From positions 1-63,022 of IMG/VR virus record IMGVR_UViG_3300031578_012080: 63,022 nucleotides of DNA. One strand, written 5' to 3'. This stretch comes from a virus. Positions within the stretch are counted from its first letter, which is position 1; each line of letters begins with the position of its first letter. The translations under genes were made by a program, and so were the position numbers. Positions 1,059 through 50,900 of the stretch are shown in pieces. The notes beneath the pieces were generated by a model. That model was given only the letters and a program-made list of their open reading frames with translations, ran no database searches and was not told the origin of the DNA.

Positions 1059-1769
1059 TTAAATAAATTTTTTTGTGGTTTTTAAACCTGTTTCTATCTG
1101 AATTAATGGTTCCCACTTATAATATTTAAAATTATCTGATTTATATTCTATATCCAATCTATTCTCATCTACTTCAATTATTATATTACTTTTTCTGTAT
1201 TTTTTTACTAGTTTTAACAAAGTGTCAATTCTTGTTTTTATACCACTTGCAATATCAAATTTTCCTATGATATCATTATTTAATACTATATCAATGGCAC
1301 TTATTAAATCTCCTTCATATAAAAAATCTCTGTATCCATCATTTACCTTTACAAACTTTTGATGAAATAAATCATATATTAAACCATATTTAACATTTGG
1401 ACCATATAGTTCTGAAACTCTAAAGACTGCATATTTTTTATTACTATCCTTTAATCTATTTTCAATTTCAATTATCTTACGTGCACGCTCATTTATAGGT
1501 TCAAATACTTCATAAACGCTAAATGGTAATTTGCAGTTAGTATTCAAATATAAATCACTACCACTAACTAGAAAAACTATTCTTTCAATTTTTTTATCTT
1601 CAATTAAATAAAAAAGTTTTTGGGTTTCCTTAAAATTTATTAAATCAATTATTGCTGTGTCCGTTTTTCCTCTTTGATGAAATGTAACATCATTTTCTCC
1701 ATCATATTCAAGACACATTTGTATATATTTCTTAAAAACAAAATTCGGACTGTACACAAGAATATTCAT
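1059..1769 (-). CDS. degenerate NAD-dependent epimerase/dehydratase-like (SDR) protein
   Basis: 236 aa, shorter than the usual 310-340. Extended-SDR landmarks are present: FRVSELYGPN (canonical R..nvYGP), RDFLYEGDLISAI (canonical RDFvyVdDla), FDIASG, and a final WEPLIQIETGLKTT. The N-terminal Rossmann glycine motif is gone, since MNILVYSPNFVFKKY replaces MkiLVTGGxGFIG. The Tyr of the YxxxK pair appears to be Glu (ERARK). It may be a non-catalytic or repurposed sugar-nucleotide epimerase relative. It lies at the downstream end of the nucleotide-modification cluster, where a sugar role would make sense, but activity is doubtful. Confidence 0.6.
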   Translation of the reverse strand: MNILVYSPNFVFKKYIQMCLEYDGENDVTFHQRGKTDTAIIDLINFKETQKLFYLIEDKKIERIVFLVSGSDLYLNTNCKLPFSVYEVFEPINERARKIIEIENRLKDSNKKYAVFRVSELYGPNVKYGLIYDLFHQKFVKVNDGYRDFLYEGDLISAIDIVLNNDIIGKFDIASGIKTRIDTLLKLVKKYRKSNIIIEVDENRLDIEYKSDNFKYYKWEPLIQIETGLKTTKKFI

Positions 1770-1772
1770 ACT

Positions 1773-2327
1773 TTAATATTTTTCGACACTATTGTCTCTA
1801 AAAAAAACACTTATATTTGCCATTTTAAACATTTCTTCTGATTCTTCACCAGCATGGTATTTTTTTTGGCATTTTACTTCTTTTATACCACACGAAATTA
1901 TTAACATGGCACAAGTTCTACAAGGTGTCATTTTACAATACATAGTTGAGTTTTCCAATACTACACCATTTTTCGCCGCTTGACATATAGCATTTTGTTC
2001 AGCGTGTATTGTCCTGGTACAATGGCTGGAAACAGGACTCAAATAAACATGATTATCATGATCATGTTTATAATCATCTGGAACATACGTATCAAATTCG
2101 TGAATCTGTTCTTGTGTTATTATCTTTTTACGTTGTTCAAATTGATGTCCATGAGTATCACAATGCGGAAATCCAGGGGGTGAACCAACATATCCAGTCG
2201 TAAGAATCTGGTTTTTATAAACAATAACACATCCACTTCTTCCACGATCACATGTACCTCTTTTTGAAATAGAATCAACTACATCAAAAAAGTATTCATC
2301 CCATTTTGGTCTTACATAATTATTCAT
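1773..2327 (-). CDS. deoxycytidylate (dCMP) deaminase
   Basis: A zinc-dependent deaminase converting dCMP to dUMP. The signature is clear: HAE at residues 111-113 (numbered from the upstream ATG at 2336) and PCRTC with Cys139 and Cys142, plus the upstream GYVGSPPGFPHC segment usual in dCMP deaminases. The ATG at 2327 is preferred because AAGGA lies eight bases upstream. The ATG at 2336 is too close to it. The start overlaps the end of the hydroxymethylase-like gene. With dUTPase and the TS-fold enzyme next door it controls the dCMP/dUMP branch point, as in T4. Confidence 0.9.
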   Translation of the reverse strand: MNNYVRPKWDEYFFDVVDSISKRGTCDRGRSGCVIVYKNQILTTGYVGSPPGFPHCDTHGHQFEQRKKIITQEQIHEFDTYVPDDYKHDHDNHVYLSPVSSHCTRTIHAEQNAICQAAKNGVVLENSTMYCKMTPCRTCAMLIISCGIKEVKCQKKYHAGEESEEMFKMANISVFFRDNSVEKY

Positions 2328-3048
2328 CTTTAACATCCTTTAAATCATAAGATCTTACCATATTTTCTAACATATCAAAATGTCTCTCATATACATGAAA
2401 TGAAAATGGATGAAAATAAATTGCACCATCTTTAAGTTCAGGATATATCTTTTTCAAATCATCAAATAATCTCTCATATACTACACAGTGCCAATAGAAG
2501 TCATTAAAAAAACCATATATGGCATCACTTGATCTTTGTTTAACAACATAAATAAGCATATCCATTCTAATAAATATTTGTACACCGTCTGTGCACATAA
2601 AATCTGACATACCATCTCTATTATAATCTTCCCACATTGATGGTCTCTGGTAAATCATAACAGCTCTTCTTGAAAATTTATTTAGTTTTAATTCTTCAAG
2701 ACAATTTTTATATTGTGAACCATTTTCTTCAGAATAAATACACCATCCATAATTACTATTTATCATTCCATTTTTATCTGCAACATCTCGCCATATTTTG
2801 GCTTTCTTTCCTATTTCCTCCACAGATAATGATTGAGAATCATACCATTCTATTTCAGCTTTTGCATATTTTTCTGGTGTTTTTCGTGCACCAAAATCTA
2901 ATACTTTTTGTCTAGGGTCAAGCTTCATAATTGGGCAAAGTGTTTCAACCATTTTAACACCACTTTTATCAATTACAAAATGACCTCTTATACGATCATT
3001 ATTTAATTCTGAAAAGAACTCAAAGAGACGGTCCTCATTTTTTTGCAT
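2320..3048 (-). CDS. thymidylate synthase-family enzyme, probable dCMP hydroxymethylase
   Basis: 242 aa, about the size of T4 gp42. TS-fold landmarks are SRR at 126-128, nucleophile Cys152, QRSSD at 171-175 and HVY at 218-220. From the Cys to QRS the spacing equals that of E. coli TS with no gap. Continuing without a gap, the residue 31 after the Cys is Asp183. In E. coli TS (Cys146) this position is Asn177, which selects dUMP. In T4 dCMP hydroxymethylase (Cys148) it is Asp179. The likely reaction is therefore dCMP plus methylene-tetrahydrofolate to 5-hydroxymethyl-dCMP. The usual C-terminal folate-closing tail of TS is absent. The canonical PCH around the Cys is MCT. It is flanked by dUTPase and dCMP deaminase, with a carbamoyltransferase 1.9 kb upstream. 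Confidence 0.75.
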   Translation of the reverse strand: MQKNEDRLFEFFSELNNDRIRGHFVIDKSGVKMVETLCPIMKLDPRQKVLDFGARKTPEKYAKAEIEWYDSQSLSVEEIGKKAKIWRDVADKNGMINSNYGWCIYSEENGSQYKNCLEELKLNKFSRRAVMIYQRPSMWEDYNRDGMSDFMCTDGVQIFIRMDMLIYVVKQRSSDAIYGFFNDFYWHCVVYERLFDDLKKIYPELKDGAIYFHPFSFHVYERHFDMLENMVRSYDLKDVKDE

Positions 3049-3050
3049 TT

Positions 3051-3575
3051 TTATTCCTTCTTGTCTGTTGAGCCAAAACCACCATCACCACGTACTTTAT
3101 CCATCAACATGTGGTCATAAATTTCTTCTCTTGAAACTTCTTGTGGATTAGGAGTTAAAACAGGAACCATTGTCATCTGCACAAGTTTGTCACCTGGTAA
3201 GATCATTACATCTTCTTTACCAACATTATTCAAATTAATATGGATTTCACCATCATAAAATGTATCAATAACTTGTGCACCAACAAGTAGATGTTTTTTT
3301 GCAGCCACACCTGATTTATTAAGAAGCAAACCCATTGTGCCGTAATCAATTTCAAAAATTACACCAGATGGAATTAAAACTGATTGATTTGGCTGAAGTA
3401 ATATTTTTCCTGTATCGTCTATTTCAACACCTTTATTCACTTTGAGATTTTTTTCGATTAAATCTTTTACATACTTTTCAGTAGAATTTGGTGCAAAAAG
3501 ATCCATACCCGCATCTGTTGCATGTCCTCTTTTTGGAGATGTCACATCCCTAACTTTGGCAAATTTGATAATCAT
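3051..3575 (-). CDS. dut: trimeric dUTPase
   Basis: 174 aa. It hydrolyses dUTP to dUMP and pyrophosphate, and in phages with modified cytosine related enzymes may also act on dCTP. The conserved motifs are ATDAGMDLFAP (motif 1, residues 19-29), LLNKSGVAAKK (motif 2), GAQVIDTFYDGEI with Asp104 (motif 3), LPGDKLVQM (motif 4) and RGDGGFGST (motif 5, 162-170). There is an insertion of about 20 residues between motif 1 and motif 2 compared with short bacterial dUTPases. It starts at the usual MIIKFAKV segment and is packed between the TS-fold genes. Confidence 0.92.
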   Translation of the reverse strand: MIIKFAKVRDVTSPKRGHATDAGMDLFAPNSTEKYVKDLIEKNLKVNKGVEIDDTGKILLQPNQSVLIPSGVIFEIDYGTMGLLLNKSGVAAKKHLLVGAQVIDTFYDGEIHINLNNVGKEDVMILPGDKLVQMTMVPVLTPNPQEVSREEIYDHMLMDKVRGDGGFGSTDKKE

Positions 3576-3605
3576 TATCTTCTCCTTAGTCTTATTATAG
3601 TATTT

Positions 3606-4241
3606 TTATTTTATGTTTTTTACTCTTTTTACAAATTCGTCAAAAAAATCGTGGTTTTGGCCAGTAGAAGCAAAAATTTCTATGTTAACTGCTTCTTCTG
3701 AGGATTCGTAAACGGGCCTTATAAAAAACTCATAAATTGTAATTAAGTCTGGAAATAACTCATTCTCAATATCTGACGCCCTAAACATTAATGCTATTTT
3801 GTTATCATAATAGTGGATCAATGATAGACAACTTACATCTTTCCCTGATATTTCTGACATATAATAATCTTTAAGACTATTTGCCATTCTTAAAACGCAC
3901 CTTGTAGATTTTCTTTCATCACCAATAGTATTAGCCATCTTTTTTATTAAATTTATTGCTTGATGATATGGAATATCATTTCTATCTTCAACAGCATAAG
4001 TATAAATTGTACCCTCAAGTTTATCCATCTTATCAAAATTCCTGAAAGCGGGTCTATCTTTATGATGTCCGTATGCACCTTTATCTATGTTCTGCTCTGC
4101 AAATGTTCGTGATTTAACATAAAGATATTCATCAACACATTTTAAATCTTTAAGTTCGTCATCATTCAATCCAAAATTATTAATTCTCAAAAAATAAGAA
4201 TCATTTTCATATAGTGGTTTTTTAAAAACTTGAATTTGCAT
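3606..4241 (-). CDS. unknown protein, possible second thymidylate-synthase-fold member
   Basis: 211 aa. I do not recognise it outright, but the central part resembles a TS-fold core. There is a Q plus amphipathic helix near 94-103, KSTRCVLRM near 111-119 (compare sRRavl), a lone Cys138 followed by alternating hydrophobic strand residues, FRASD at 153-157 (compare QRSxD) and ELFPDL at 161-166. Aligning the RxxD motif puts Asp165 where TS has its substrate-selecting Asn. The Cys-to-Arg spacing is four residues shorter than in TS, and no clear HxY motif follows. It sits directly between dUTPase and the P-loop kinase. The family call is tentative; it could be unrelated. Confidence 0.4.
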   Translation of the reverse strand: MQIQVFKKPLYENDSYFLRINNFGLNDDELKDLKCVDEYLYVKSRTFAEQNIDKGAYGHHKDRPAFRNFDKMDKLEGTIYTYAVEDRNDIPYHQAINLIKKMANTIGDERKSTRCVLRMANSLKDYYMSEISGKDVSCLSLIHYYDNKIALMFRASDIENELFPDLITIYEFFIRPVYESSEEAVNIEIFASTGQNHDFFDEFVKRVKNIK

Positions 4242-4242
4242 T

Positions 4243-4908
4243 TTAAAGAATCCCTCTATTATTTGAAATTTCCTTAATATAGTCTAATAAAAAACCATAT
4301 TGTGTTTTAACATTTATATCTGTAATTTTATTTCTGCATGATATGTTTGCAACATCTATTTCTGCTTTTTTATCTATAATTGTTTCTGCAAAACCAATTG
4401 TCATATTCCTTATAAAATGATATTCATTTTCCTGAGTATATTTCAAATACTTTTGAGTGTAGTTATCAAATCTTTGCTGTTCTCTTATTGGTTCAAAAAG
4501 AAAAACCATATCATATATATTAAATAAATGGATATGTGTTTTTACTGTCAAAACACTTAAAAATTCATGATATTTTTTTATATTCTCTTCATCAAATGAA
4601 GATTTATCCAAATAAAATGTATAATAAAAATAACTATCAATGAGGCTTCTATCAAAAAATATTATTTTATTGTCATCATATATTTTAGCTGTTTCTTCTT
4701 GAAGTATTTTTTCACCTATCACTTCTATTTCAAAATCAAGATATTTAACTGGATCTTTTCTTATCTCATCAATATTTATATTTTTATCTCTTATAATTTC
4801 TGTTTTATGAACCACATTTTCTGGCCCTAAATCTTTTGTTAATTGTTCAATACAGGTTGTTTTACCTGAATGGGCCGATCCTGATATAACAATTATTAAA
4901 TTACTCAC
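4243..4908 (-). CDS. P-loop kinase, candidate deoxynucleotide (hydroxymethyl-dNMP) kinase
   Basis: 221 aa from a GTG start at 4908 (reading VSNLIIVISG), chosen because TTGGAG lies six bases upstream and the GTG overlaps the carbamoyltransferase stop (GTGAGTAA). A longer frame to 5010 would overlap that gene by 110 bases and has no sense of its own. Walker A is GSAHSGKTT near residues 9-17, and a DRSLIDSYFYY segment near 93-103 resembles the lid/Walker B area of NadR/AAA_28-type and nucleotide kinases. T4 needs gp1 to phosphorylate hydroxymethyl-dCMP, and this gene is the only small kinase in the cluster. The substrate is inferred, not shown. Confidence 0.65.
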   Translation of the reverse strand: MSNLIIVISGSAHSGKTTCIEQLTKDLGPENVVHKTEIIRDKNINIDEIRKDPVKYLDFEIEVIGEKILQEETAKIYDDNKIIFFDRSLIDSYFYYTFYLDKSSFDEENIKKYHEFLSVLTVKTHIHLFNIYDMVFLFEPIREQQRFDNYTQKYLKYTQENEYHFIRNMTIGFAETIIDKKAEIDVANISCRNKITDINVKTQYGFLLDYIKEISNNRGIL

Positions 4909-6601
4909 TATATGCTCCAATAAATAAATAAACATTTTTATCAGCACGTTCAAATTGAAAAAAGAAATCTTCCATTGCTTGATCAACAGTAAAAACAATG
5001 GGTTTTCCATGTATATTAAAAGATGTATTTATCAATGCTTTTGTTTTATCTTCCATCCTTTTTAATATTTTATAAATAGTTGAATCTCTATCAACAACAA
5101 TTTGTGGTCTACCAGAATATTTATTAATTAATGGATACTTATGCATTATACCACCATACTCTTCACAATAATCTATTTTATAATCATATGTCAAAATCAT
5201 ATATTGATCAGAACCAATAACTCTAGTGAATTGCTCAGCTTTAAAGAAATGATCAATATATTCATATAGAATACATGGTGCCATAGGCATAACTGTATTT
5301 CTTTTATTCAAATGATTAATATACTCAACATTCTTTTTTGTTGGTAATGCAAGAGTTGATGTATGACATAATGCTCTTGGTCCAAATTCCATATTACCAA
5401 ATACAATATTGACAATTTTATCATCCATCAATTTTTCTACAACACCGTCTACCATTTCATCTTGATTACCAACACATTTTATATAATCTGGATAATCTAC
5501 AGTAATATCTGTAATTTCATCTCTTTTTCCCCAAAGTAGACTATCAAATGGAAAGTTATTTTTTTGAAATTCATATAATCCTATTGCTGCTCCTTGATCA
5601 CCGCACACAGGACAAATACAAATATCACCTTCAATTTCATTCATTATTTTATTATTGAGTTTCACATTATAATAAATTCCACCAGTTAGAATAACATTTT
5701 TAATATTGAATTTTTCAATAATAAGAACATGAACACCTTCAATAATTTTTTGTATATAATATCCAACAACTATTCTCTTTATATTTTCATCCATTCTTAC
5801 ATCAAGACATTCAACCATGTTTTCAAAATCTTGATACCATACCTCTTTTGTTTGTTGCAATTCATCAATATTAATATAATCTGATGAATGATTTCCAGAA
5901 TTACTTTCATACATCAATAAATCAAACATGGTTTTTATAACACTTTTGGCAATCATATTTAATTTATCGATATCTTCATCAGAGCATACACTATCAATAT
6001 CAGATTCATACCCAAGGAACTTGTATTCATCCTGGTTCTCTTTCATTCCACAAAACGATGTAGCATATTGATACATAAGTCCTAATGATTTGAAGTATCC
6101 CGATGAATTGAAATCTTTCATTAAGGTTTTCTTCTTACCACCATTAAATGATAATTCATAAACTGAAAGAACTTCTTGATTATTACCAAATCCATCAGCA
6201 ACTATTACAGTTGCATCTTCTCTTCCATTATGTGAAACATAATATGAAACAGCCGACCATGCGTGAGCATCATGATGTGTAAAATCTTCATTCAATATTT
6301 CAAGCTTAAAATTATATTTTTCTTTTATTTCATTAATGAATCCATAATTATAATATTTATTTATTGTCTCATTATATTTTTGATAGAACAAAAAATTATC
6401 AAACCAATGAGAAACATATATTGTATTATCTTTGTCTGGATTGGGTGGACTCAATTCAAATATTTTCCTTATTGAATTTTCAGCAAATAATGAACATGAT
6501 TTTATGCCCGTTAATCTCTCTTCTTCATATGCTGCAATAATTTCATTGTCTTTTATACCTATTGCAGATGCGTTGTGTCCCAGTGTTATAAGTAATTCCA
6601 T
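4901..6601 (-). CDS. NodU/CmcH/TobZ-family O-carbamoyltransferase
   Basis: 566 aa, the usual full length. These enzymes make carbamoyl-adenylate from carbamoyl phosphate and ATP in a Kae1-like domain and pass the carbamoyl to a hydroxyl. Landmarks run in order: LGHNASAIGI and EEERL (7-30), the metal-binding HHDAH at 109-113, VIVADGFG, LTGGIYYNVKLN, PVCGDQGAAIG, MEFGPRAL, RNTVMPMAPCILYE, and LINTSFNIHGKPIV near the C-terminus. All signature blocks look intact, so I expect activity. Its place between the kinase, a UDG-like gene and the hydroxymethylase-like gene suggests the acceptor is the 5-hydroxymethyl group of a pyrimidine in DNA. Known relatives act on antibiotics and Nod factors, so another acceptor is possible. 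Confidence 0.93.
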   Translation of the reverse strand: MELLITLGHNASAIGIKDNEIIAAYEEERLTGIKSCSLFAENSIRKIFELSPPNPDKDNTIYVSHWFDNFLFYQKYNETINKYYNYGFINEIKEKYNFKLEILNEDFTHHDAHAWSAVSYYVSHNGREDATVIVADGFGNNQEVLSVYELSFNGGKKKTLMKDFNSSGYFKSLGLMYQYATSFCGMKENQDEYKFLGYESDIDSVCSDEDIDKLNMIAKSVIKTMFDLLMYESNSGNHSSDYINIDELQQTKEVWYQDFENMVECLDVRMDENIKRIVVGYYIQKIIEGVHVLIIEKFNIKNVILTGGIYYNVKLNNKIMNEIEGDICICPVCGDQGAAIGLYEFQKNNFPFDSLLWGKRDEITDITVDYPDYIKCVGNQDEMVDGVVEKLMDDKIVNIVFGNMEFGPRALCHTSTLALPTKKNVEYINHLNKRNTVMPMAPCILYEYIDHFFKAEQFTRVIGSDQYMILTYDYKIDYCEEYGGIMHKYPLINKYSGRPQIVVDRDSTIYKILKRMEDKTKALINTSFNIHGKPIVFTVDQAMEDFFFQFERADKNVYLFIGAYSE

Positions 6602-7342
6602 TTATCCCTCTAACAATTCTTTTATTTTTAAATTATAATGTTGTTTGCCATCTTTAAACTGCTGTCTATATATAAAATACGATGGATGATATGTATAAAC
6701 TGATTCAATTCTATTTTCATTCATAAAATTATAAACATCTCGTCCTAGTGCTAATATCTTTTTAGGTTTCAATATTTTTATTTCTTCTTCTAAAATATGC
6801 AAATATTTCTCATACATCTTCTCGTAAGAATAATTATTATTGTATGATTTATCATTCATTAAATTTCTTGATAAACATAATTTTGATAGATTAGTAAAAT
6901 ATATTCGTTTTAAATCTGATTTAAATCCTTCTCTTAACATTTTTGAAGTTAATGCAAAATAAAATGATGGTTTAAGCGGTTTTGACAACACATCTGTTTT
7001 ATTTGCATTATAAAATCCTGGTGCCATTCCAACTACCATTATACCATCAGTACCTATATACCCATCACCAACACAATTCAATTTATCTTCATCTTCCACC
7101 AAAATATCTTTATTTGTATCGAATAACAGTTGTTTATTTTTTTTATGTTCTTCATCAAAGACATGCATTAAAGGGGAAAATATAAAAAATAGGTTGGAAA
7201 CATCATCATCAACAGTAACAACAAATTCTGGATCAAGAAATTGTTCACGGTACTCTTTAAATACTGTGTATGTTAGTTCATTATATGGAAGAGAACTATT
7301 ATCTAAAATAAATTGTCTGAACCTCGCTAAAAATTCTTTCAT
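6602..7342 (-). CDS. uracil-DNA glycosylase superfamily protein
   Basis: 246 aa. The C-terminal two thirds carry a UDG fold: VVGMAPG at 103-109 (motif 1, GxxPG), IYFTNLSKL at 147-155, LKPKKILALGRDVYNFM at 191-207, and YHPSYF at 218-223 containing the HPS of motif 2. This pattern is that of family 4/5-like enzymes, but I see none of the four Fe-S cysteines of family 4. The first 95 residues are not recognised. It may remove deaminated or unmodified bases from phage DNA, or it may be a non-catalytic relative. Its stop touches the carbamoyltransferase start. Confidence 0.7.
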   Translation of the reverse strand: MKEFLARFRQFILDNSSLPYNELTYTVFKEYREQFLDPEFVVTVDDDVSNLFFIFSPLMHVFDEEHKKNKQLLFDTNKDILVEDEDKLNCVGDGYIGTDGIMVVGMAPGFYNANKTDVLSKPLKPSFYFALTSKMLREGFKSDLKRIYFTNLSKLCLSRNLMNDKSYNNNYSYEKMYEKYLHILEEEIKILKPKKILALGRDVYNFMNENRIESVYTYHPSYFIYRQQFKDGKQHYNLKIKELLEG

Positions 7343-7806
7343 TTTGCCAAAACCTTAAATTCATGCCATATTGATTTCAAATTTTCAAGTCTTTTTTTCA
7401 TAGATTTTACTGAATCATCATGCTTTTCATATTTTCTTGGAAATTCAATTTTTTTACCCAAATGAATATAAATTTTATTTTTATAATAGATAATCTTTGT
7501 TTTTAATCTTGTATATTCTACATGTGTTTGTTCCCATTGTCTTACTTTATTGAGACAATGTTTCTTATTCTTTTTATAATATTTTGCTCTTACTTTCTTG
7601 TCTCTCTTTTTTATTTCATGTCTTTGTTTATATTTTTTTACTCTACCTCCACAACATACTTTACATTCACCACTTGAAGGTTTTCCATCTCTTTTCAGAT
7701 AGAATCCATCTTCAATGTCCTTATATTCTTCACATTTACTGCATCTTTTTCTATTTTTTTGAATCTTAGAAAATATCTTGCTGATATCTTTTTTTGTAGT
7801 TTTCAT
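7339..7806 (-). CDS. basic zinc-ribbon protein of HNH-associated type
   Basis: About 155 aa from the ATG at 7806, which has GGA about 11 bases upstream. An upstream ATG at 7842 would lengthen the overlap with the glycosyltransferase gene from 41 to 77 bases. A four-Cys knuckle, CSKCEEYKD ... CKVCCGG, is followed by a very Lys/Arg/Tyr-rich helix. This resembles the zinc-knuckle front part often found on phage HNH proteins and free-standing phage zinc proteins. No HNH catalytic motif is visible. It probably binds nucleic acid; the function is unknown. Confidence 0.6.
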   Translation of the reverse strand: MKTTKKDISKIFSKIQKNRKRCSKCEEYKDIEDGFYLKRDGKPSSGECKVCCGGRVKKYKQRHEIKKRDKKVRAKYYKKNKKHCLNKVRQWEQTHVEYTRLKTKIIYYKNKIYIHLGKKIEFPRKYEKHDDSVKSMKKRLENLKSIWHEFKVLAK

Positions 7807-8992
7807 AAAAAGATATGTCCAAAAATTTTTGGTAATCTTCACATGCTCTTAATTCATCAATTATTTTCTGATAATCTAATGCTTTAATTTTTTTAATTAA
7901 TTCTTCTTCTGTAACCAGCAAATCATATTTTTCAATAATCTCTTTATACTTTGGTAAATGACCATAGACATGTTGCCATTTAGAATCTTTATGAATTAAA
8001 GGTATACATGCTCTATCTACAGCTTCATGAAATCTAATTAGAGAGAACTCATTCTCACAATATGCTGGAATTACCATTGTATAACGAGCAGCTGCAATAT
8101 ACTTATCGTTATAATCAAACCCATTTACATACGTATTTATTTTTCTTTGTTTATCTTTAAAAAAATGTTTGTAAGTTATACCTTCTTTATCAAAATCTTT
8201 TTCCAGTTCCAAGAGTTTGCCAATCATATTAAATCTATATGGAACAGATGTCATAACACTTGTCATACCAAAAACAAAATCATATTCTTTTTTATATTCA
8301 AAAGTCTGATCTTTGTTTCGTTTGTAAATAAATCCATATTCTACATAAGGAAAATATTCAGCATTTACCCTTGGACAATCATAATAAAAAAATCTTTTAT
8401 TTATAGGATTAACTGCATGAAAACTTAATTCAAGTGGGTCATCCACAAATTGAACAATGGGTACATTATAATTTCTATTCAAATAATATTCAACCATTAT
8501 TCTTCTATAATAGTTCTTTATTGATGAGAAGCTGAATCCATACTTATCATCTTTTACAATATTTTTATATAATCCTTCTAAATTATCTTCATTACCAAAG
8601 CTCCAAGCATCAATTAATGGGGTAAATGCAATTATAACTTTATTGAAATGATATTGTGAAAATAAATCATCAAGTATTTCTAATGATTTTTTCCATGAAT
8701 CACTCTTCATATAATCTGAACCATCAATAAGACTTGTAAATTTTGTTTTATTTTTAAGCGTTTTTTCAAGACGCTCTGGGCGGACAAATGTGAAGAAATG
8801 ATAATTGTTATTTCCAAGTTCCACAAAATCTAGATTTTTATCGATACGGTGTTTTGCGAAAAATCCACAATGATTACATCCAAACATGACTAATGTATTA
8901 TTTTTATATCCTTCTATTTTTTGACCTTTTCTTCTTCTCATAGTTTGTACATTTGTTGTATCAACTTTCACATCACTTTTTCTTTTTATCAT
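7766..8992 (-). CDS. GT-B-like glycosyltransferase, candidate DNA-base glycosyltransferase
   Basis: 408 aa. The C-terminal half looks like the nucleotide-sugar-binding half of a GT-B enzyme: YTMVIPAYCENEFS near 304-317 followed by RFHEAVDRACIPLI near 320-333, the R..Ea...G.iPv arrangement with Glu323. The N-terminal half contains FGCNHCGFF and no known motif. It is adjacent to the DNA polymerase gene and upstream of the UDG-like and carbamoyltransferase genes, so a role in glycosylating hydroxymethylated bases, as T4 AGT/BGT do, is plausible. It could instead modify a virion or host glycan. The family assignment is moderate and the substrate is inferred. Confidence 0.55.
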   Translation of the reverse strand: MIKRKSDVKVDTTNVQTMRRRKGQKIEGYKNNTLVMFGCNHCGFFAKHRIDKNLDFVELGNNNYHFFTFVRPERLEKTLKNKTKFTSLIDGSDYMKSDSWKKSLEILDDLFSQYHFNKVIIAFTPLIDAWSFGNEDNLEGLYKNIVKDDKYGFSFSSIKNYYRRIMVEYYLNRNYNVPIVQFVDDPLELSFHAVNPINKRFFYYDCPRVNAEYFPYVEYGFIYKRNKDQTFEYKKEYDFVFGMTSVMTSVPYRFNMIGKLLELEKDFDKEGITYKHFFKDKQRKINTYVNGFDYNDKYIAAARYTMVIPAYCENEFSLIRFHEAVDRACIPLIHKDSKWQHVYGHLPKYKEIIEKYDLLVTEEELIKKIKALDYQKIIDELRACEDYQKFLDISFYENYKKRYQQDIF

Positions 8993-8998
8993 GCCGGT

Positions 8999-11900
8999 TT
9001 AAACCTTTAGTTTTAAAATATTATCTATAAAATATGTTTTCATTCCTGCAAAATCTTCATCTCTTCTTATTTTTACTTTTACAAGATCACCATTATAAGT
9101 ATCACTATTTATTAATCCAATATCTTCAGCAACATTTGACCATGCTTTCAAATCAATTGAATAACATTCATCGTATACTGTTGCATAAACTAATTTTCCA
9201 CTAATTTCAATATTATTAATATATCCAAAGCAAAATTTTGGAGGACCTATTGTCATTTCTTCACATTCAATTAATGTTTTTAAATATCTATCTTCAGATT
9301 TTACTTTTTCAAACTGAAATACTCTTTTTTCAATTAGCTCTTCATTTTTCTTATCAATTATGCTATCTATTTCTTCAGTATCTTTGGTTATGTGTATAAA
9401 ACTATTTAATGTACATGGTTTATAACTATAAATTGAATATCTTGAAACAGCAAAATATACAATTCTTCCAAGTTTAATTACATTCTTATAGTTTTCAAAA
9501 ACTGAATTCCATACTTTCAATGTTATAAATGAATTATCATCTTCAATTCTTATCTTATAAAATCTTCTTCCAGCCTTTGTTTCACCATCTTCAATTCTTT
9601 TTATAACACCAATGCTTGCACCATATCCGTTATCCTTTATGTTTTCAATAGTTCCATATTTTTTAACATCAATCTGCAATTGATTCATCTTATTGATAAA
9701 TTCAAAACCTAAAACAGTATTAGTAAATTTATCATTTTCTTCATCTGTAAGTTTGAATAGTTCAAGATCCATATCTTCAATTGTTAATTGTTTAATATCA
9801 ATTGTAAGATTGTTTGTTATTTTCTCAATAGTATTACAAATGGTATCAGAAACTGGATTTTTATCTCTTTCCTTTGCCAATCTACTGTGTTCTCCTACAA
9901 AAAACCCTTTTCTGTTTTGACATTTTTTATAATAAGTAAAAAGAATTTTTATTCTATCACCAAAATCATCAAATCCGCCTACAAGAATTAATGGCATCAT
10001 GACTCGTTTGGTAACTTTACTTTTACCTCTTTGTTTTATTGTTCTTTCAAGGAAATCATCAAAAGATGTGAACGGATGTTTATTTGAAATTTCAGCAGCT
10101 GGTTCAGCACCAACACCTTTCAAATTTATAAATCCAATAACAATACTATTCCCATCTATTGTGAAATTTAATTTACTTTTATTTACATTAATTCCTTCAA
10201 TATTAATTTCTAATTTTTTAGCTTCCCTTATGTAGCTCTCATATTTTGATTCATCTTTTGGAATATTCTGTAATACAGCACAAATATATTCTTTTGGATA
10301 ATATGTTCTGAGCCATGCACAACGATATGAAATTATTGTATAACTTACTGCGTGGGACTTGTTGAAGCCGTAGCCGGCCCATTTTAAAAATCCATCAAAA
10401 AGTTTTTCCAGTTCTTTTACAGGAAGATGTTTCTTACCATTTGCAATAAATTTCTTTTTATATTCCTGAAGTTTTTTCCATTGTTCATCTTTAACTGTTC
10501 CTTTTACTTTAGTAAGTAGTTTTCTTAAAATATCTGTTTCAACCAATGTAAAATCAGCTATTTTATTAGCAATCTGCATTATTTGTTCTTGATAAACTAC
10601 AATACCATAAGTATATCCAAGAACTTCTTCCAATAATGGGTGAATCTTATATTTTGATTTTCCTAATTTTCTTCTACAAAATTCATCAGTCATTCCACTT
10701 TGTAATGGTCCAGGTCTACCTAAAGCTGTAACAGCTGCCAAACAATCAAAACTATCACATTTTGAATCTTTAAGCAGTTTTCTCATCATTGGACTTTCAA
10801 ATTGGAATATTAAATTACCATTTCCAAGCATAATCTGTTCATATATTTTAGGATCATTTAAATTACTATCAATATCTTCATGTGCATCAATTTCTTTTCC
10901 ATGTCTTTCTTTAACAATTTTAATAGTATCCTTAATAAATGTTAGATTTAATAATCCAAGTATATCATATTTGACAAATCCAAAACTTGAAAGTTCCGCA
11001 CCTCTTTTTCCTTCAATCCATGCTGACAATATATTATTTTGTCTTGTAACTAATGGTAAATTTCCTGTCAAATCATGTTTGCTAATAATAAATCCTGCAG
11101 CATGTGCAGAAATATTTCTTATTCTTCCACGTATATTCCAAAATGTGTTATAGGGATTCAATGTTTTTTCTTCTGTTTTTCTTTGAACAAGTTGTTCATA
11201 TTGTTTTTCTCTAAGTGGTTCAAATAATGGACCAAAAGTTTTTTCTGCCTCCTCTTTGTCCATTAGATCAACATCTGATGTCAATTGTTTTGTTATCATT
11301 CTTGATACGACAAGCGGAACATCAAAAACTCTACAAACATCTGCGATTGAAGCTCTTGTCTGATAAGTTCCATAAGTACCAATTGCACATGTTTTGTTTC
11401 TACCATATTTTTGAATAATATAATCTTTTATTGCATCTCTTCCATGAGGTTCAAAATCTATATCAATATCAGGCATATCTTGACGTGCTTCATTTAGAAA
11501 TCTTTCAAAGAATAAATTGAATTGTAATGGATCAACATCAGTTATTCTGAGAACATAACATAATAATGCTCCTGCTGCCGATCCCCTACCACAGCCGACC
11601 CAGATATCATTGTCCCAAGACCATTTTACCATATCCCAAACAATTAAAAAATATCCTGAATATTCTTTTCTTTTTATTACATCAAGTTCCATTTCTAATC
11701 TAGCAATATACTTTTCGTTATTTTTCCCTCTTTCCTTCAAACCTTCAAATGCTAGATGTCTTAAATACTCATATGAACTATCAAAACCTTTAATGTCATC
11801 ATAATCTGCAATTTTCAAACTTGTATCAATTTCAACTTTACAACTATCTGCAAATTTTACTGCATTCTTTTTTGCCTGTTCATATACATCACGTGGAACT

Positions 11901-13273
11901 ATTTCAGTATATAAATCTTCATATGTTTGGTCAAGATCTTCAGCTGATTTATACCATAGTTCTTTAGAATGAAATGTAAATATTTTATCTGGGTCTTCTT
12001 GTAAATCTTTTATCTTATTATTATTTTGTATTAATAGCATAACATCTTGATAATATGAATCATCTTTCTTAACATAATGACAATCACTTGTCACAACTAA
12101 ATCTATGTCTAAATCCTTTGATATTTTTACAAGTTCTGCATTTACTTTTTGTTGTTCTTCAATATCAAGTAACATTAATTCAAGAAAGAAATCTTTTCCA
12201 AATATACTTTTATAATATTCAGATGCCTTATATGCACGATCCAAATCACCATTTAAAATACACTGTGAAATTGGTCCTGCATAACATGCTGTTCCACATA
12301 ATAATCCTTCAGAATATTTTTCAATCATTTCATGTGTTGTTCTTGGTCTTCTATAATATCCATTTATCCATGCATCTGACGTTAATTTTATCAGATTACT
12401 TAAACCTGTATTATTTTTTGCTAATAATGTTAAATGATAATTTTTTCTAAATTTACTTTGTAGATCTTCTAGTGAATCAAATCCTTCTGGCAATTTTAAA
12501 TCTTTTGCTGCTTTTACATTATATTCACGAAGATCTCTATAATCATTTAAATAAATCTCACATCCATATATTGCATTTAATCCTAGTTCTTTACAAATAT
12601 TATATTGTCTTGGAATTTGACCTAACATTCCATGATTGGTAATTGCTAAATGTTTCCATCCTCTTTCTTTTGCAGCATGTGCATATTCTTCAACAGTACC
12701 ATATCCATCTAAAAGTGAATATTCATCATGAATATGTAAATGTACAAACGGTTGGCATCCCTTTAATTTTTTTATTTTATCATCATATTCCTTTATAAAC
12801 TCTTTTATAAGGGGAATAGAAGGTTTTATTTGATCATACCATTCATCATAAGATTCACCTTTATCAATTTGCACAACTTGAGGATGCCAAATCGCAATTG
12901 CGTGGCCATTTTTCTTTTTTTCTAAAATACCATAATCCGCAAGATCCAATAATTCTCTTGCTAATTCGCCAATCGCAATTATTAGTTCTGGTTTCTGTTC
13001 ACCAATTATTCTTGTAATATAATCAACAAGCTCATCTTCATCTTTTTCATTTAAATCGAGTTCATCTTGTTTTCTAGGTAGGGCAGTGATGAAATAATTA
13101 TTAGAAGTTAGTTTTAGTGATGAAAATAATTTTCGTAAATGTTTGGAAAATTTTTCTTTTGCAATTTCTTTCTTTATATCAAATGGAAAATCACAATTAT
13201 CAGTTTCTCTATCTATTAAAATATCTAATCCGAAAATTAGAATCTTAGATTCTTTGTTTCCAAATTCTATCAT
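8999..13273 (-). CDS. dnaE: DNA polymerase III alpha subunit (DnaE type) with an N-terminal UDG-like domain
   Basis: 1424 aa replicative polymerase. Residues 1-165 look like a UDG-superfamily fold (NYFITALPRK near 59-68, KPELIIAIGELARELL near 94-109, WHPQ at 129-132) but lack the GxxPG motif. The PHP domain starts near 176 with HLHIHDEYSLLDG, then TNHG, YGCEIYL and SDCHY, so its metal site looks intact and could proofread. GCGRGSAAG and PDIDIDF (601-607) carry the catalytic Asp602 and Asp604; KYDILGL near 767 supplies the third. HAAGFIISK and GYGFNKSHA follow, then a C-terminal OB region (GASIGVIKRIEDG). E. coli DnaE is about 1160 aa, so the excess is mostly the N-terminal domain and the tail. 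The start has AAAGG upstream. Confidence 0.93.
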   Translation of the reverse strand: MIEFGNKESKILIFGLDILIDRETDNCDFPFDIKKEIAKEKFSKHLRKLFSSLKLTSNNYFITALPRKQDELDLNEKDEDELVDYITRIIGEQKPELIIAIGELARELLDLADYGILEKKKNGHAIAIWHPQVVQIDKGESYDEWYDQIKPSIPLIKEFIKEYDDKIKKLKGCQPFVHLHIHDEYSLLDGYGTVEEYAHAAKERGWKHLAITNHGMLGQIPRQYNICKELGLNAIYGCEIYLNDYRDLREYNVKAAKDLKLPEGFDSLEDLQSKFRKNYHLTLLAKNNTGLSNLIKLTSDAWINGYYRRPRTTHEMIEKYSEGLLCGTACYAGPISQCILNGDLDRAYKASEYYKSIFGKDFFLELMLLDIEEQQKVNAELVKISKDLDIDLVVTSDCHYVKKDDSYYQDVMLLIQNNNKIKDLQEDPDKIFTFHSKELWYKSAEDLDQTYEDLYTEIVPRDVYEQAKKNAVKFADSCKVEIDTSLKIADYDDIKGFDSSYEYLRHLAFEGLKERGKNNEKYIARLEMELDVIKRKEYSGYFLIVWDMVKWSWDNDIWVGCGRGSAAGALLCYVLRITDVDPLQFNLFFERFLNEARQDMPDIDIDFEPHGRDAIKDYIIQKYGRNKTCAIGTYGTYQTRASIADVCRVFDVPLVVSRMITKQLTSDVDLMDKEEAEKTFGPLFEPLREKQYEQLVQRKTEEKTLNPYNTFWNIRGRIRNISAHAAGFIISKHDLTGNLPLVTRQNNILSAWIEGKRGAELSSFGFVKYDILGLLNLTFIKDTIKIVKERHGKEIDAHEDIDSNLNDPKIYEQIMLGNGNLIFQFESPMMRKLLKDSKCDSFDCLAAVTALGRPGPLQSGMTDEFCRRKLGKSKYKIHPLLEEVLGYTYGIVVYQEQIMQIANKIADFTLVETDILRKLLTKVKGTVKDEQWKKLQEYKKKFIANGKKHLPVKELEKLFDGFLKWAGYGFNKSHAVSYTIISYRCAWLRTYYPKEYICAVLQNIPKDESKYESYIREAKKLEINIEGINVNKSKLNFTIDGNSIVIGFINLKGVGAEPAAEISNKHPFTSFDDFLERTIKQRGKSKVTKRVMMPLILVGGFDDFGDRIKILFTYYKKCQNRKGFFVGEHSRLAKERDKNPVSDTICNTIEKITNNLTIDIKQLTIEDMDLELFKLTDEENDKFTNTVLGFEFINKMNQLQIDVKKYGTIENIKDNGYGASIGVIKRIEDGETKAGRRFYKIRIEDDNSFITLKVWNSVFENYKNVIKLGRIVYFAVSRYSIYSYKPCTLNSFIHITKDTEEIDSIIDKKNEELIEKRVFQFEKVKSEDRYLKTLIECEEMTIGPPKFCFGYINNIEISGKLVYATVYDECYSIDLKAWSNVAEDIGLINSDTYNGDLVKVKIRRDEDFAGMKTYFIDNILKLKV

Positions 13274-20505: not shown

Positions 20506-21222
20506 TTAAAGATGCAATTCTGGTTTTAATTTTACACGTGATTGTGTACAGTAAAGGGAGTTGTATTGTTGAAGTATATTAAAAATCTTGAGATATTTTT
20601 GTGCAGTTTTGTATCTTTCACTTTTATCATTAGGAATATTTCTTATTTTTTTAACACCAAGTGTTATTCTAATTCCTACCGTTCTATTTGTCATCTTTTT
20701 ATTTTCAATAATAATAATGTTGTCAGTTGCTTTTTTAAGATCATGTTCCTTAAAATATTCAACCATTGCAATCTTTTGTTTTTTAGTAACGTTATTACTA
20801 AGAAACTCTTCCATTTCAATTATATCAACTTGTCTAAGCATATATAATAATTTAATTCGTTTAAGTGATCTTTTTCTATAATAACATACCATTTCTTGAG
20901 AAACTTCTAATATTTTACCTATTATCTCCTGTTTTTTCTTAAAGAAATACGTAAAAACTATAACATATTTTTCTATTTCTGGAAGCATAGTATTAATTAT
21001 ATATAAAATTTCATCAATTTTAGCTTGTTTATCGATAGAGATTGAAATATCATTATTTTTATATAATGAATCAACATCGCTAAAAAATTTATCAATAATA
21101 GAACCATCAACTGCAATTTCTGTATTATGATATGTGTAGCCTTCAGCTTTTAGAATACTCAGTTTATTTTGAACTGTATTTGAAGAGTTACTAAAAGTAC
21201 TAAATGCATCTTTAGTTATCAT
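20506..21222 (-). CDS. sigma-70 region 4-like helix-turn-helix protein
   Basis: About 238 aa from the ATG at 21222, chosen because AGAGG lies six bases upstream. A longer frame to 21282 would overlap the small zinc gene. The stretch IIGKILEVSQEMVCYYRKRSL about residues 98-118 has the pattern of a sigma region 4 or LuxR-type HTH (IA..L.vS...V......A). A second helical HTH-like stretch follows (VTKKQKIAMVEYFKEH). It may be a phage transcription factor acting with host RNA polymerase. No region 2 is visible. Confidence 0.45.
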   Translation of the reverse strand: MITKDAFSTFSNSSNTVQNKLSILKAEGYTYHNTEIAVDGSIIDKFFSDVDSLYKNNDISISIDKQAKIDEILYIINTMLPEIEKYVIVFTYFFKKKQEIIGKILEVSQEMVCYYRKRSLKRIKLLYMLRQVDIIEMEEFLSNNVTKKQKIAMVEYFKEHDLKKATDNIIIIENKKMTNRTVGIRITLGVKKIRNIPNDKSERYKTAQKYLKIFNILQQYNSLYCTQSRVKLKPELHL

Positions 21223-21376
21223 CATTTTCCTCTTCTTCATTTGATTTATTGCAGGAACAACTGTTGCAGATAAGAGTACCATTCTTTAATATTTCACCTT
21301 TATTAATTCCACATATAGTACATTTACCAGAAAGAATTGTTATTTTTTGAGGTGTTCCAATTTTAGTAAAAGCCAT
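21212..21376 (-). CDS. small zinc-finger protein
   Basis: 54 aa from the ATG at 21376 (MAFTKIGTP), which has GGAGA seven bases upstream; a longer frame to 21397 overlaps the ligase-like gene. It contains CTIC and CNSCSC about 16 residues apart, a compact zinc finger, followed by an acidic Glu/Asp/Asn tail. Its stop overlaps the start of the HTH gene, so the two may act together. Function unknown. Confidence 0.6.
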   Translation of the reverse strand: MAFTKIGTPQKITILSGKCTICGINKGEILKNGTLICNSCSCNKSNEEEENDDN

Positions 21377-47999: not shown

Positions 48000-50900
48000 T
48001 TATGGTACAAGTACTATTGTCACATCCACATCTGGTCCTACACCATAAGGACCATTTAATATACCGGCATCCTTATCAACAGGGACATCTGGTACTAAAT
48101 AAAATCCTTTATAATGAGCAACAATTTGTCCTATTGTTTCTTCAACTTCTTCTATGTTTTCACTAAGAGCTACACCAACGTCTGGATTTGATTCTTCAAC
48201 CGAAGCATATGTATCACTGAATCCAACAGCAGGATACCACATATCAACACCCAGTAAACTACCAAGCAATACTCGTTCTTCTTCAATTGGTAAAGAACCA
48301 ACCAAAGGACTATATAATTTATTTAATATGAATATCTTTTTAAGATAATCACCAAACATAAATATAACAGTTGGACTATCAGTTGGTAGATCTTTTGTTT
48401 CTTGAAAAAATGAACCACCTAATAATAAATCTGTCCAATCATCAACTAGTTGGTCATACAAATCATCTAAATCATAATTCAGTGTTATCTCATGTCTTGG
48501 GCAATGTACATTATAACTTCTTGTATAATAATCATTAAAATATGAACCAACTTCTGGATCAAAATCACTTCCATCAACTCGATAATCATTTAATATGAAT
48601 CTATGACTACTGTTACATGGTGGAATTACATAATCATCAGATTTTACCCATTCAAATGTAACTTGTCTGAGTTGAGTACAAACATGAGCATGTAGTGGAC
48701 CTTCAAATTCAAATCCACCTAAATAATCATTTACATTAAAAGTATTGAAAATACTTTTTTCAGTTGGGTCGAAGTCACTTCCATCAACAGTGAAATCGTT
48801 AAGATAAAAAGTAATATGACGATATACATAGAATTCATTATAATAGTAAGTAATTTCAATTTGATCTCCATAATTTGGCGGTGCAGTTAATTTTACATAT
48901 CCTCTTGTTGGATCAAACTCATCAACGCTTACAGGTGTTCCATTTATAGTTACAACAAAATCTGTCAATTCAGCAATTTCAAATTCATCTTCTTTTATCC
49001 AAGGCTTAAAATATGTGAAGAAATCATCTTTTGTTGGCTCGCCTAAAAATTGATTTGAAACATTTTCTGTTATCTCTTGTATTTCTGCAGCATATTCTGA
49101 ACAATCTGTTCTCATATCTTCAGGATAAAGATTTTCAAAACCAACTTTATATCTATCACAAATTGCTGTGCTTGTTGTTTTAATTGCAACTTGCCATCCA
49201 TAAATATCTAAGATTGGTATTTTTCTTCCCCATTGGTCCAATATATAATCACCTTGTGGATCTTTTTCCCATTGTAGTTCACAAGCATTTTGAAAATAGA
49301 AATGTTCTGTCCAAATAAATCTTATTATGTAAAAAATATGTGAAGGTTTAACAACTGTCATAAATGCATTTATCTGTTCACTCATTAATGATAAATTTGA
49401 ATCAAGTGGTCCAGCACCTTCAACTAAAACATCAATTTTAACAATAAATTGCTCTGAAATATCAGCATCTTTGCTAAATACTGGCTCTCTTAATTGCACA
49501 TCATTTTCAACAAATAATTCTAATCCACGTTGCAATGATGTTTTCGTTGAACCTTCAAATAATATACTTATCAAAGCTAAAAGTAATTGTCTATAATCTT
49601 CTTGTGATATCACATTACTTGGAGGGATAGTTATTAAATATCCTAAATTTTGCCAAATTAATTTTGGATCCAGAATATCATAATCTAAATCATTTTGTGA
49701 TTTTTCTTCATCATATTCCAATCTTGCTTGTTCCATTGCATGAGATTTAAGATGACCATAAAATATAGTTGATGGTGATCTTGAATAACTACTACCCATA
49801 TTTTTGAATATGTCTTTAATATACTCAAGAGATTGATAATATTGGTCATTTCTTTTTTGAATAGCTCTTGATGCTGTTATATGAGTTGTAAATCTATATT
49901 CAAATGGAACCATTACATTTCCAACATGATCAATTGCATTAATAATAACTATTATTGATGCATTATGTTCAAATTGTCCTGTTGGTGTAGCAAAAACTAT
50001 ATAACCTCTATTTCTTTCAAAAAATGAAAAATTAAGATTATCTTCAAACAAGAATAAATCAAGTATTTGGGAAACAGTAATATCAAGATTGTTTTCATTT
50101 AAAAGATATTTACTTAGCTCTTGATTGTATTTTGAATTTATAATTTCTGCTTCATAGTCATCTAATCCATTAAGATAATCTGCAAGCTTTTTAATTGTAT
50201 TATAAGCATTATTACTTAAATTTAATTGTAGACTTATAATACTATTTATTTTGACAACAAAATTTACATTATCTATTGTTAGTCTTACATTAGTTGATGA
50301 CCCAGTGTATCTGAATCTTATAGTATCACGTGTTATTGGTTTATATATAACATTATTTATTTTAATCTGGACTGTTCTTATATTAACTCCAGATTGATTG
50401 TCATCAATATATGCAATAACATTAGTTTTTGTTGATACGTCAGTAGAATTTGGAGTAGGATAAAGTTCTCTAACTCTAGGTGCTTCAGTATCTGCTTGTA
50501 TAAAATTGAATATTACTTCATCAGCTATATTGCCTGCAATATCACTAACATTATAAATTCTGAGTACTTCTACATCCTCAAAATTTAAAACACCTTGAAT
50601 AGGACTTATTGTTATTTCATAATCTGTTGGATTTAATGGAACCCAAGAAAAATATGAAGAATTTTTAGTTTGAGAATATTCTATACCATTAACTTCAACT
50701 TTTATTGAACTTACATCAACACCTGAAAAATCATCACTTACTTTAAATTTAAATTCTGTTGTTGATTCTGTAATGACACCATCAGGTGGCTCAATATCAT
50801 AAATTACAGGTGGAATTAAATCAATTTTAACAATTTCTGTATTAACAGTTTCTATATTTCCAGCATTATCACGTGAAAAATATTTCAGGGTAAATGTGCC

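Follow-up and report, generated by a model that had tools for sequence, protein, structure and literature searches.

Organization of the gene cluster

The subject of this analysis is a candidate cytosine hypermodification cluster in a 63,022-base IMG/VR virus record (IMGVR_UViG_3300031578_012080), classed as linear and referred to here in its entirety as the window. The minus strand from about 1059 to 13273 forms one tightly packed gene run, with intergenic gaps of -77 to +30 bases (Table 1). Read from the polymerase end, the run encodes a DnaE polymerase, a putative glycosyltransferase (GT), a small endonuclease-like ORF, a UDG-superfamily protein and a carbamoyltransferase (CT), followed by a P-loop kinase, a second protein with the thymidylate synthase (TS) fold (TS2), a dUTPase, a hydroxymethylase, a dCMP deaminase and a weak epimerase-like ORF. 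The evidence points to a pathway in which cytosine is hydroxymethylated by an enzyme of the T4 gp42 type and then probably carbamoylated.

A sequence-only reading of this DNA had described an intact NodU/TobZ-type CT 1.9 kb from a TS-family enzyme with a hydroxymethylase-type Asp, the two separated by a P-loop kinase, a possible second TS-fold protein and a dUTPase, all in one unit beside the DNA polymerase. The arrangement was upheld. Both CT domains are matched in Pfam (Carbam_trans_C at 3.5e-30, Carbam_trans_N at 3.5e-17), 1.85 kb separate the end of the CT gene from the start of the TS-family gene, the kinase and dUTPase are recognized by their Pfam families, and the packed run extends from the DnaE gene. 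The kinase start was moved: as read from the sequence, it is likely the GTG at 4908, which overlaps the CT stop, and not the ATG at 5010. Linked genes beyond those listed in that reading are the dCMP deaminase, the UDG-superfamily gene and the putative GT. The dCMP deaminase gene overlaps the hydroxymethylase gene by 17 bases, and its product matches both the dCMP deaminase and the MafB19-like deaminase models of Pfam.

Table 1. Genes of the minus-strand run, listed from the polymerase end.
Feature	Positions	Strand	Basis
DnaE-type DNA polymerase	8999-13273	minus	
Putative base glycosyltransferase (GT), 408 aa	7766-8992	minus	Gene context; weak domain match on L143 homologue
UDG-superfamily protein, abuts CT	6602-7342	minus	PF03167, 2e-10
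Carbamoyltransferase (CT), 566 aa, predicted 5-hydroxymethylcytosine O-carbamoyltransferase	4901-6601	minus	Pfam PF16861/PF02543
P-loop deoxynucleoside/deoxynucleotide kinase, 221 aa	4243-4908	minus	Pfam AAA_28, 5.6e-12; dNK, 9.2e-07
TS2, 211 aa, second protein with the TS fold, of a new family	3606-4241	minus	Alignment, model, Foldseek
Trimeric dUTPase-family protein	3051-3575	minus	Pfam PF00692, 3.2e-16
Predicted dCMP hydroxymethylase, T4 gp42 type, 242 aa	2320-3048	minus	PDB 1b49 match; gp42 clade
dCMP deaminase (ComEB type)	1773-2336	minus	PF00383, 1.4e-21; TIGR02571, 8e-27, under equivalog cut-off
Weak NAD-dependent epimerase-like protein at run end, part in pathway uncertain	1059-1769	minus	PF01370, E 0.02, under cut-off

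The TS-family enzyme falls within the gp42 clade

The TS-family ORF matches Pfam PF00303 (1.7e-13) and keeps the equivalents of Cys148 and Asp179 when aligned with the T4 dCMP hydroxymethylase structure (PDB 1b49), so that the hydroxymethylase-type Asp claimed earlier is in place. Replacement of TS Asn177 by Asp switches the specificity of TS from dUMP to dCMP. The ORF shares about 48-51% identity with gp42 proteins from Aeromonas, and in a tree of 65 rows it lies within the gp42 clade with an SH-aLRT of 100. The phage dCMP 5-hydroxylase AfhB and two relatives form a separate clade in the same tree (SH-aLRT 99), and the E-value of the ORF is 1.6e-52 to the gp42 structure versus 0.0078 to AfhB. 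The Asp at the specificity position and the placement in the gp42 clade led us to reject a canonical thymidylate synthase, and the tree and the scores an AfhB-type hydroxylase. Judged by these relationships, the ORF is a dCMP hydroxymethylase of the T4 gp42 type.

The nearest relatives of the window hydroxymethylase (L051-L053, 53-61% identity) lie on contigs on which no CT was found, which suggests that CT may have acquired its gp42-type partner independently of the TS lineages that CT loci generally carry. CT was also absent from 30 records with a gp42-type TS, in a search that had no positive control among its targets, many of which were short fragments.

The CT belongs to a clade paired with dCMP-type TS genes

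A single-sequence search of viral contigs with CT returned nothing. Relatives were gathered by alignment search, which yielded 44 IMG/VR loci, several of them near-duplicates (L034, identical to L005 in length and coordinates, looks to be Xanthomonas phage Xp15 itself); identity between CT and its phage relatives is 32-49%. A TS-family gene lies within the fetched stretch of 41 of these 44 loci. As for the other three, L009 has a TS elsewhere on the contig, with the same Asp by reading, L049 ends inside its own CT, and L037 is a short contig whose gene scores equal those of L038, which does have a TS. CT together with an Asp-type TS was also present in all five named phage records fetched and in both genome-bin loci. 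The residue at the 177/179 position is Asp in every one of the 55 TS proteins tabulated (54 beside other CTs, plus that of the window). The recurrence of the pairing in 41/44 related loci indicates that its occurrence in the window is not due to chance. The pair of hydroxymethylase and carbamoyltransferase proposed from the sequence is thus supported from both sides, the TS falling in the gp42 clade and the CT in a clade tied to dCMP-type TS genes.

A carbamoyltransferase pathway acting on 5-hydroxymethylcytosine (5hmC) has been found by MetaGPA (Yang et al., eLife 2021, PMC8670742). According to the parts of that paper available to us, the enzyme assayed was a 63 kDa phage-type CT from a TS-bearing contig; it carbamoylates 5hmC, acting on single-stranded DNA and on 5hm-dCTP, not on 5hm-dUTP. 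The same parts give TobZ W408, G421 and R423 as the three top differential positions between modified and unmodified contigs (PMC8670742). To place these positions we used the published numbering together with the conserved motif GPRAL. The window CT has Ile, Cys and Thr there, unlike TobZ, and its likeness to the published system lies in the positions being the same. Across the CT clade, the W408 position holds an aliphatic residue, the G421 position Cys (Gly or Met in a few) and the R423 position Thr (Arg in L037 and L038). Four cyanophage-type CTs used as controls have Gly and Arg at the G421 and R423 positions, and no TS is annotated near them. On gene context and these residues, we reject sugar or surface carbamoylation by a CT of the cyanophage type.

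NAD-dependent epimerase-family genes (f23) were seen near CT, TS2 and hydroxymethylase genes in L008, L011, L012, L015, L017, L019 and L039, a hint of sugar-nucleotide chemistry near the pathway.

TS2 and its family

The TS2 ORF has no significant match in Pfam, PHROGs or NCBIfam, single-sequence searches of PDB, phages and IMG/VR gave no usable relatives, and a fold computed from the single sequence had a pLDDT of 34. A usable model came only from an alignment of 13 members, 33-44% identical to the window protein, from which AlphaFold2 gave a pLDDT of 90.6. The top Foldseek matches of this model are all TS-fold proteins, the best in PDB being AfhB, thymidylate synthases, MilA and T4 gp42. First among the solved structures are 9iqc/9iqu, the dCMP hydroxylase AfhB of phage HY126 (E 4e-5, 15% identity), a match only slightly better than that to ordinary TS. 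In profile-profile comparison TS2 matched the hydroxymethylase family at E 1.7e-6; the TS2 profile was not significantly related to four other families from the same loci and matched no PDB sequence. The possible second TS-fold protein was therefore borne out once its family had been built, and on the strength of the model and the profile comparison TS2 is placed in an unnamed TS-fold family. An independent scan of IMG/VR with the TS2 profile returned 15 loci, all 15 already in the CT set by contig name; because the scan patterns came from CT-linked members, a more distant TS2 without CT could have escaped.

Invariant in the 13 members are a Tyr that lines up with the catalytic one of TS, a Cys, the RxSD motif and a cytosine-reading Asp; the Asp follows the D of the motif by eight residues, just as N177 follows D169 in TS (counted from sequence). 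TS2 is without the NSNYG context and does not have the complete TS catalytic set, the His207/Tyr209 motif being absent; an STxQN-like motif is found in the corresponding region. In the window copy, Thr occupies one of two phosphate-binding Arg positions. From its conserved residues, TS2 appears to have kept the capacity to bind a cytosine nucleotide.

TS enzymes act as dimers in which active-site Arg residues are shared, and a role for TS2 as a dead or regulatory subunit, in a heterodimer with the hydroxymethylase, would be compatible with a carbamoylation pathway. The TS fold, the exclusivity to CT loci and the adjacency of the genes are consistent with such a subunit, as are the Thr of the window copy and the family-wide loss of the His/Tyr motif, but the invariance of the Tyr, the Cys, RxSD and the cytosine-reading Asp goes beyond purely structural need. 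We hold the subunit role to be a serious, if tentative, possibility.

Two intact TS-family genes each were observed in L002, L020, L022-L026 and L030. The second directly follows the kinase, which is the place of TS2 in the window, and in several of these loci RSxN stands in place of the RSxD motif, as it does in AfhB.

The putative GT, UDG domains and other features

The GT protein of the window has no match in Pfam, PHROG or NCBIfam, and its name is tentative because the sole family support is a weak Glyco_trans_1_2 match (E 0.042) on the homologue in locus L143. This locus, binned as a Patescibacteria metagenome-assembled genome, is probably a phage contig in a bacterial bin. Its GT homologue (43% identity) is fused to a UDG domain, and a short upstream ORF matches the GT N-terminus, indicating that the L143 gene is split or interrupted. 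L143 also holds a gp42-type hydroxymethylase, dUTPase, CT, kinase, TS2 and deaminase, nearly the gene set of the window. Two phages have further GT homologues. That of Pseudoalteromonas phage XG4 (E 1.5e-19) is separated by about 3.4 kb from a gp42-type TS, whereas that of Agathobaculum phage AB434P2 (E 2.5e-6) overlaps the end of a TS gene whose product has Asp at the specificity position by reading. A single-sequence search with GT in IMG/VR found nothing. When the other CT loci (L002-L050, the 44 from IMG/VR and the five of named phages) were scanned with the GT profile, no homologue came up; a single weak hit (E 6e-4) was obtained in L069, a gp42-type TS locus with no CT seen. We treat the ORF as a putative base glycosyltransferase, and its probable presence in the run makes apt the earlier proviso that the base might be otherwise decorated.

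Kinase and UDG domain form one fusion protein in L009 and L013, and, by reading, the L007 kinase is extended in a similar way. The first ~170 residues of the window DnaE protein appear UDG-like by eye, with no Pfam call there. Elsewhere in the window, positions 20506-21282 weakly match sigma-70 region 4 (E 2e-4) and may encode a phage sigma factor, and the longest ORF, of 2784 aa, spans 48000-56354.

A candidate pathway and its alternatives

We interpret the cluster, with a probability of about 0.7, as a phage cytosine hypermodification pathway in which hydroxymethylation by the gp42-type enzyme is followed by carbamoylation to 5-carbamoyloxymethylcytosine. Based on homology and active-site residues, the gp42-type enzyme would convert dCMP to 5-hydroxymethyl-dCMP with methylenetetrahydrofolate. 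The P-loop kinase beside CT would phosphorylate the modified nucleotide in place of T4 gp1, and the dCMP deaminase and dUTPase, from their families, would draw the remaining dCMP and dUTP toward dUMP and dTMP. By analogy with the phage-type enzyme assayed by Yang et al., CT would form carbamoyl-adenylate from carbamoyl phosphate and ATP and then O-carbamoylate the 5-hydroxymethyl group, the acceptor being 5hm-dCTP or single-stranded DNA. TS2 would be a dedicated TS-fold partner that aids the hydroxymethylase or performs a further step, and the putative GT may also decorate some of the hydroxymethylcytosines. The product is likely to be 5-carbamoyloxymethylcytosine, possibly with a second decoration, and the benefit to the phage is likely escape from restriction enzymes.

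Several observations weigh against this pathway. The W408 position is no discriminator, because three of the four cyanophage-type controls also have Ile there. Neither a dCTPase nor MazG was recognized among the window ORFs scanned with Pfam, the window being a 63-kb linear fragment, and full replacement of cytosine is thus unproven. With GT present, two decorating enzymes might also share the hydroxymethyl group or a sugar attached to it.

A more elaborate outcome, which we consider somewhat unlikely, is that the two TS-fold proteins and the two possible decorating enzymes jointly build an undescribed cytosine derivative, such as hydroxymethylcytosine (hmC) further altered by a non-folate TS2 or a base with both carbamoyl and sugar. 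TS2 would then be the first of a new functional class within the TS fold, one devoted to the carbamoylation pathway.

Less probable still is a carbamoylated glycosyl-hmC, in which GT would add a sugar to hmC and CT would then act on a sugar hydroxyl. In its favor, sugars are carbamoylated by the superfamily members NodU, TobZ and NovN, two phages have a GT homologue close to a dCMP-type TS gene, GT, CT and a gp42-type TS occur together in L143, and epimerase-family genes neighbor CT in several relatives. The GT call, however, itself consists of a weak Pfam match and gene context, and the blank result of the GT profile in the IMG/VR and named CT loci, which share the same CT signature, indicates that the usual acceptor of the clade is not the product of this GT.

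It is very unlikely that the base is 5-hydroxycytosine, made by the main TS or TS2 as an AfhB-type dCMP 5-hydroxylase and carbamoylated to 5-carbamoyloxycytosine. The AfhB structures are the best solved matches of TS2, 5-hodCMP synthases belong to the TS superfamily and 428 phage records contain AfhB relatives, but the window TS, placed in the gp42 clade, is distant from AfhB, and the resemblance of TS2 to AfhB is barely above that to ordinary TS and finds no counterpart when its profile is compared with PDB sequences. That CT carbamoylates a small molecule or surface sugar and is merely near the hydroxymethylase, as other phage Nol-like CTs in contexts without an annotated TS might suggest, is hardly credible given that those CTs are just 22-29% identical to the window CT and keep G421/R423, and that nearly all CTs in the clade of the window CT are paired with an Asp-type TS.

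Comparison with known systems

Hydroxymethylation followed by carbamoylation resembles the T4 5hmC/glucosyl-hmC pathway (gp42, gp1, AGT/BGT) in having a gp42-type enzyme, a nucleotide kinase and a downstream decorating enzyme. Unlike T4, the window is predicted to decorate by carbamoyl transfer, and it has an AAA_28/dNK-type kinase, a DnaE-type polymerase and no recognized dCTPase. AfhB, the 5-hodCMP synthase of HY126 and Mosigvirus, is likewise a TS-fold enzyme acting on C5 of dCMP and has the nearest solved fold to TS2, but the window TS lies outside the AfhB clade and TS2, at ~15% identity, has no sequence-level match to it.

In the CT loci of Xanthomonas phage Xp15, Acinetobacter phages HHU4, Effie and MD-2021a, Bacteroides phage BF494P1 and their kin, CT adjoins an Asp-type TS, as in the window, and kinase, MazG-like or deaminase genes are close by. 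These loci differ from the window in having other TS lineages and neither TS2 nor GT; that of BF494P1 has two intact TS-family genes. With this relationship, 5-carbamoyloxymethylcytosine would reach beyond the single assayed metagenomic enzyme to a family of phage loci. Named isolates are part of that family, and the DNA of Xp15 and of the Acinetobacter and Bacteroides phages is directly testable. The comparison also brings to light an unnamed TS-fold family that was seen with this pathway alone. Phages may, in addition, carry two hmC-decorating enzymes, which bears on restriction escape and on the host defenses that recognize such decorations.

The core of the cluster, compared at the level of sequence, matches the published 5hmC carbamoyltransferase system, of which the window would be a new member. 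A literature search for 5-carbamoyloxymethylcytosine returned PMC8670742 alone, which is weak evidence, as few subscription papers and preprints were covered. In the available parts of that paper, the domains that co-occur with CT in modified contigs are TS, dCMP deaminase, MafB19-like deaminase and PRA-PH, all but the last of which are matched in the window. Shared with the MetaGPA system, as it appears there, are the NodU-type CT, the Asp177-type TS-family enzyme, a nearby dCMP deaminase, the changes at TobZ G421/R423 and a similar CT size (63 kDa published, 566 aa in the window). The window differs in that its TS is T4 gp42-like and no PRA-PH/MazG gene was recognized in it, and it adds TS2, UDG-superfamily and GT genes. 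TS2, the UDG fusions and the added GT go beyond the description given in those parts, and these extra partner genes suggest a step in the DNA chemistry of the phage that nobody has yet described.

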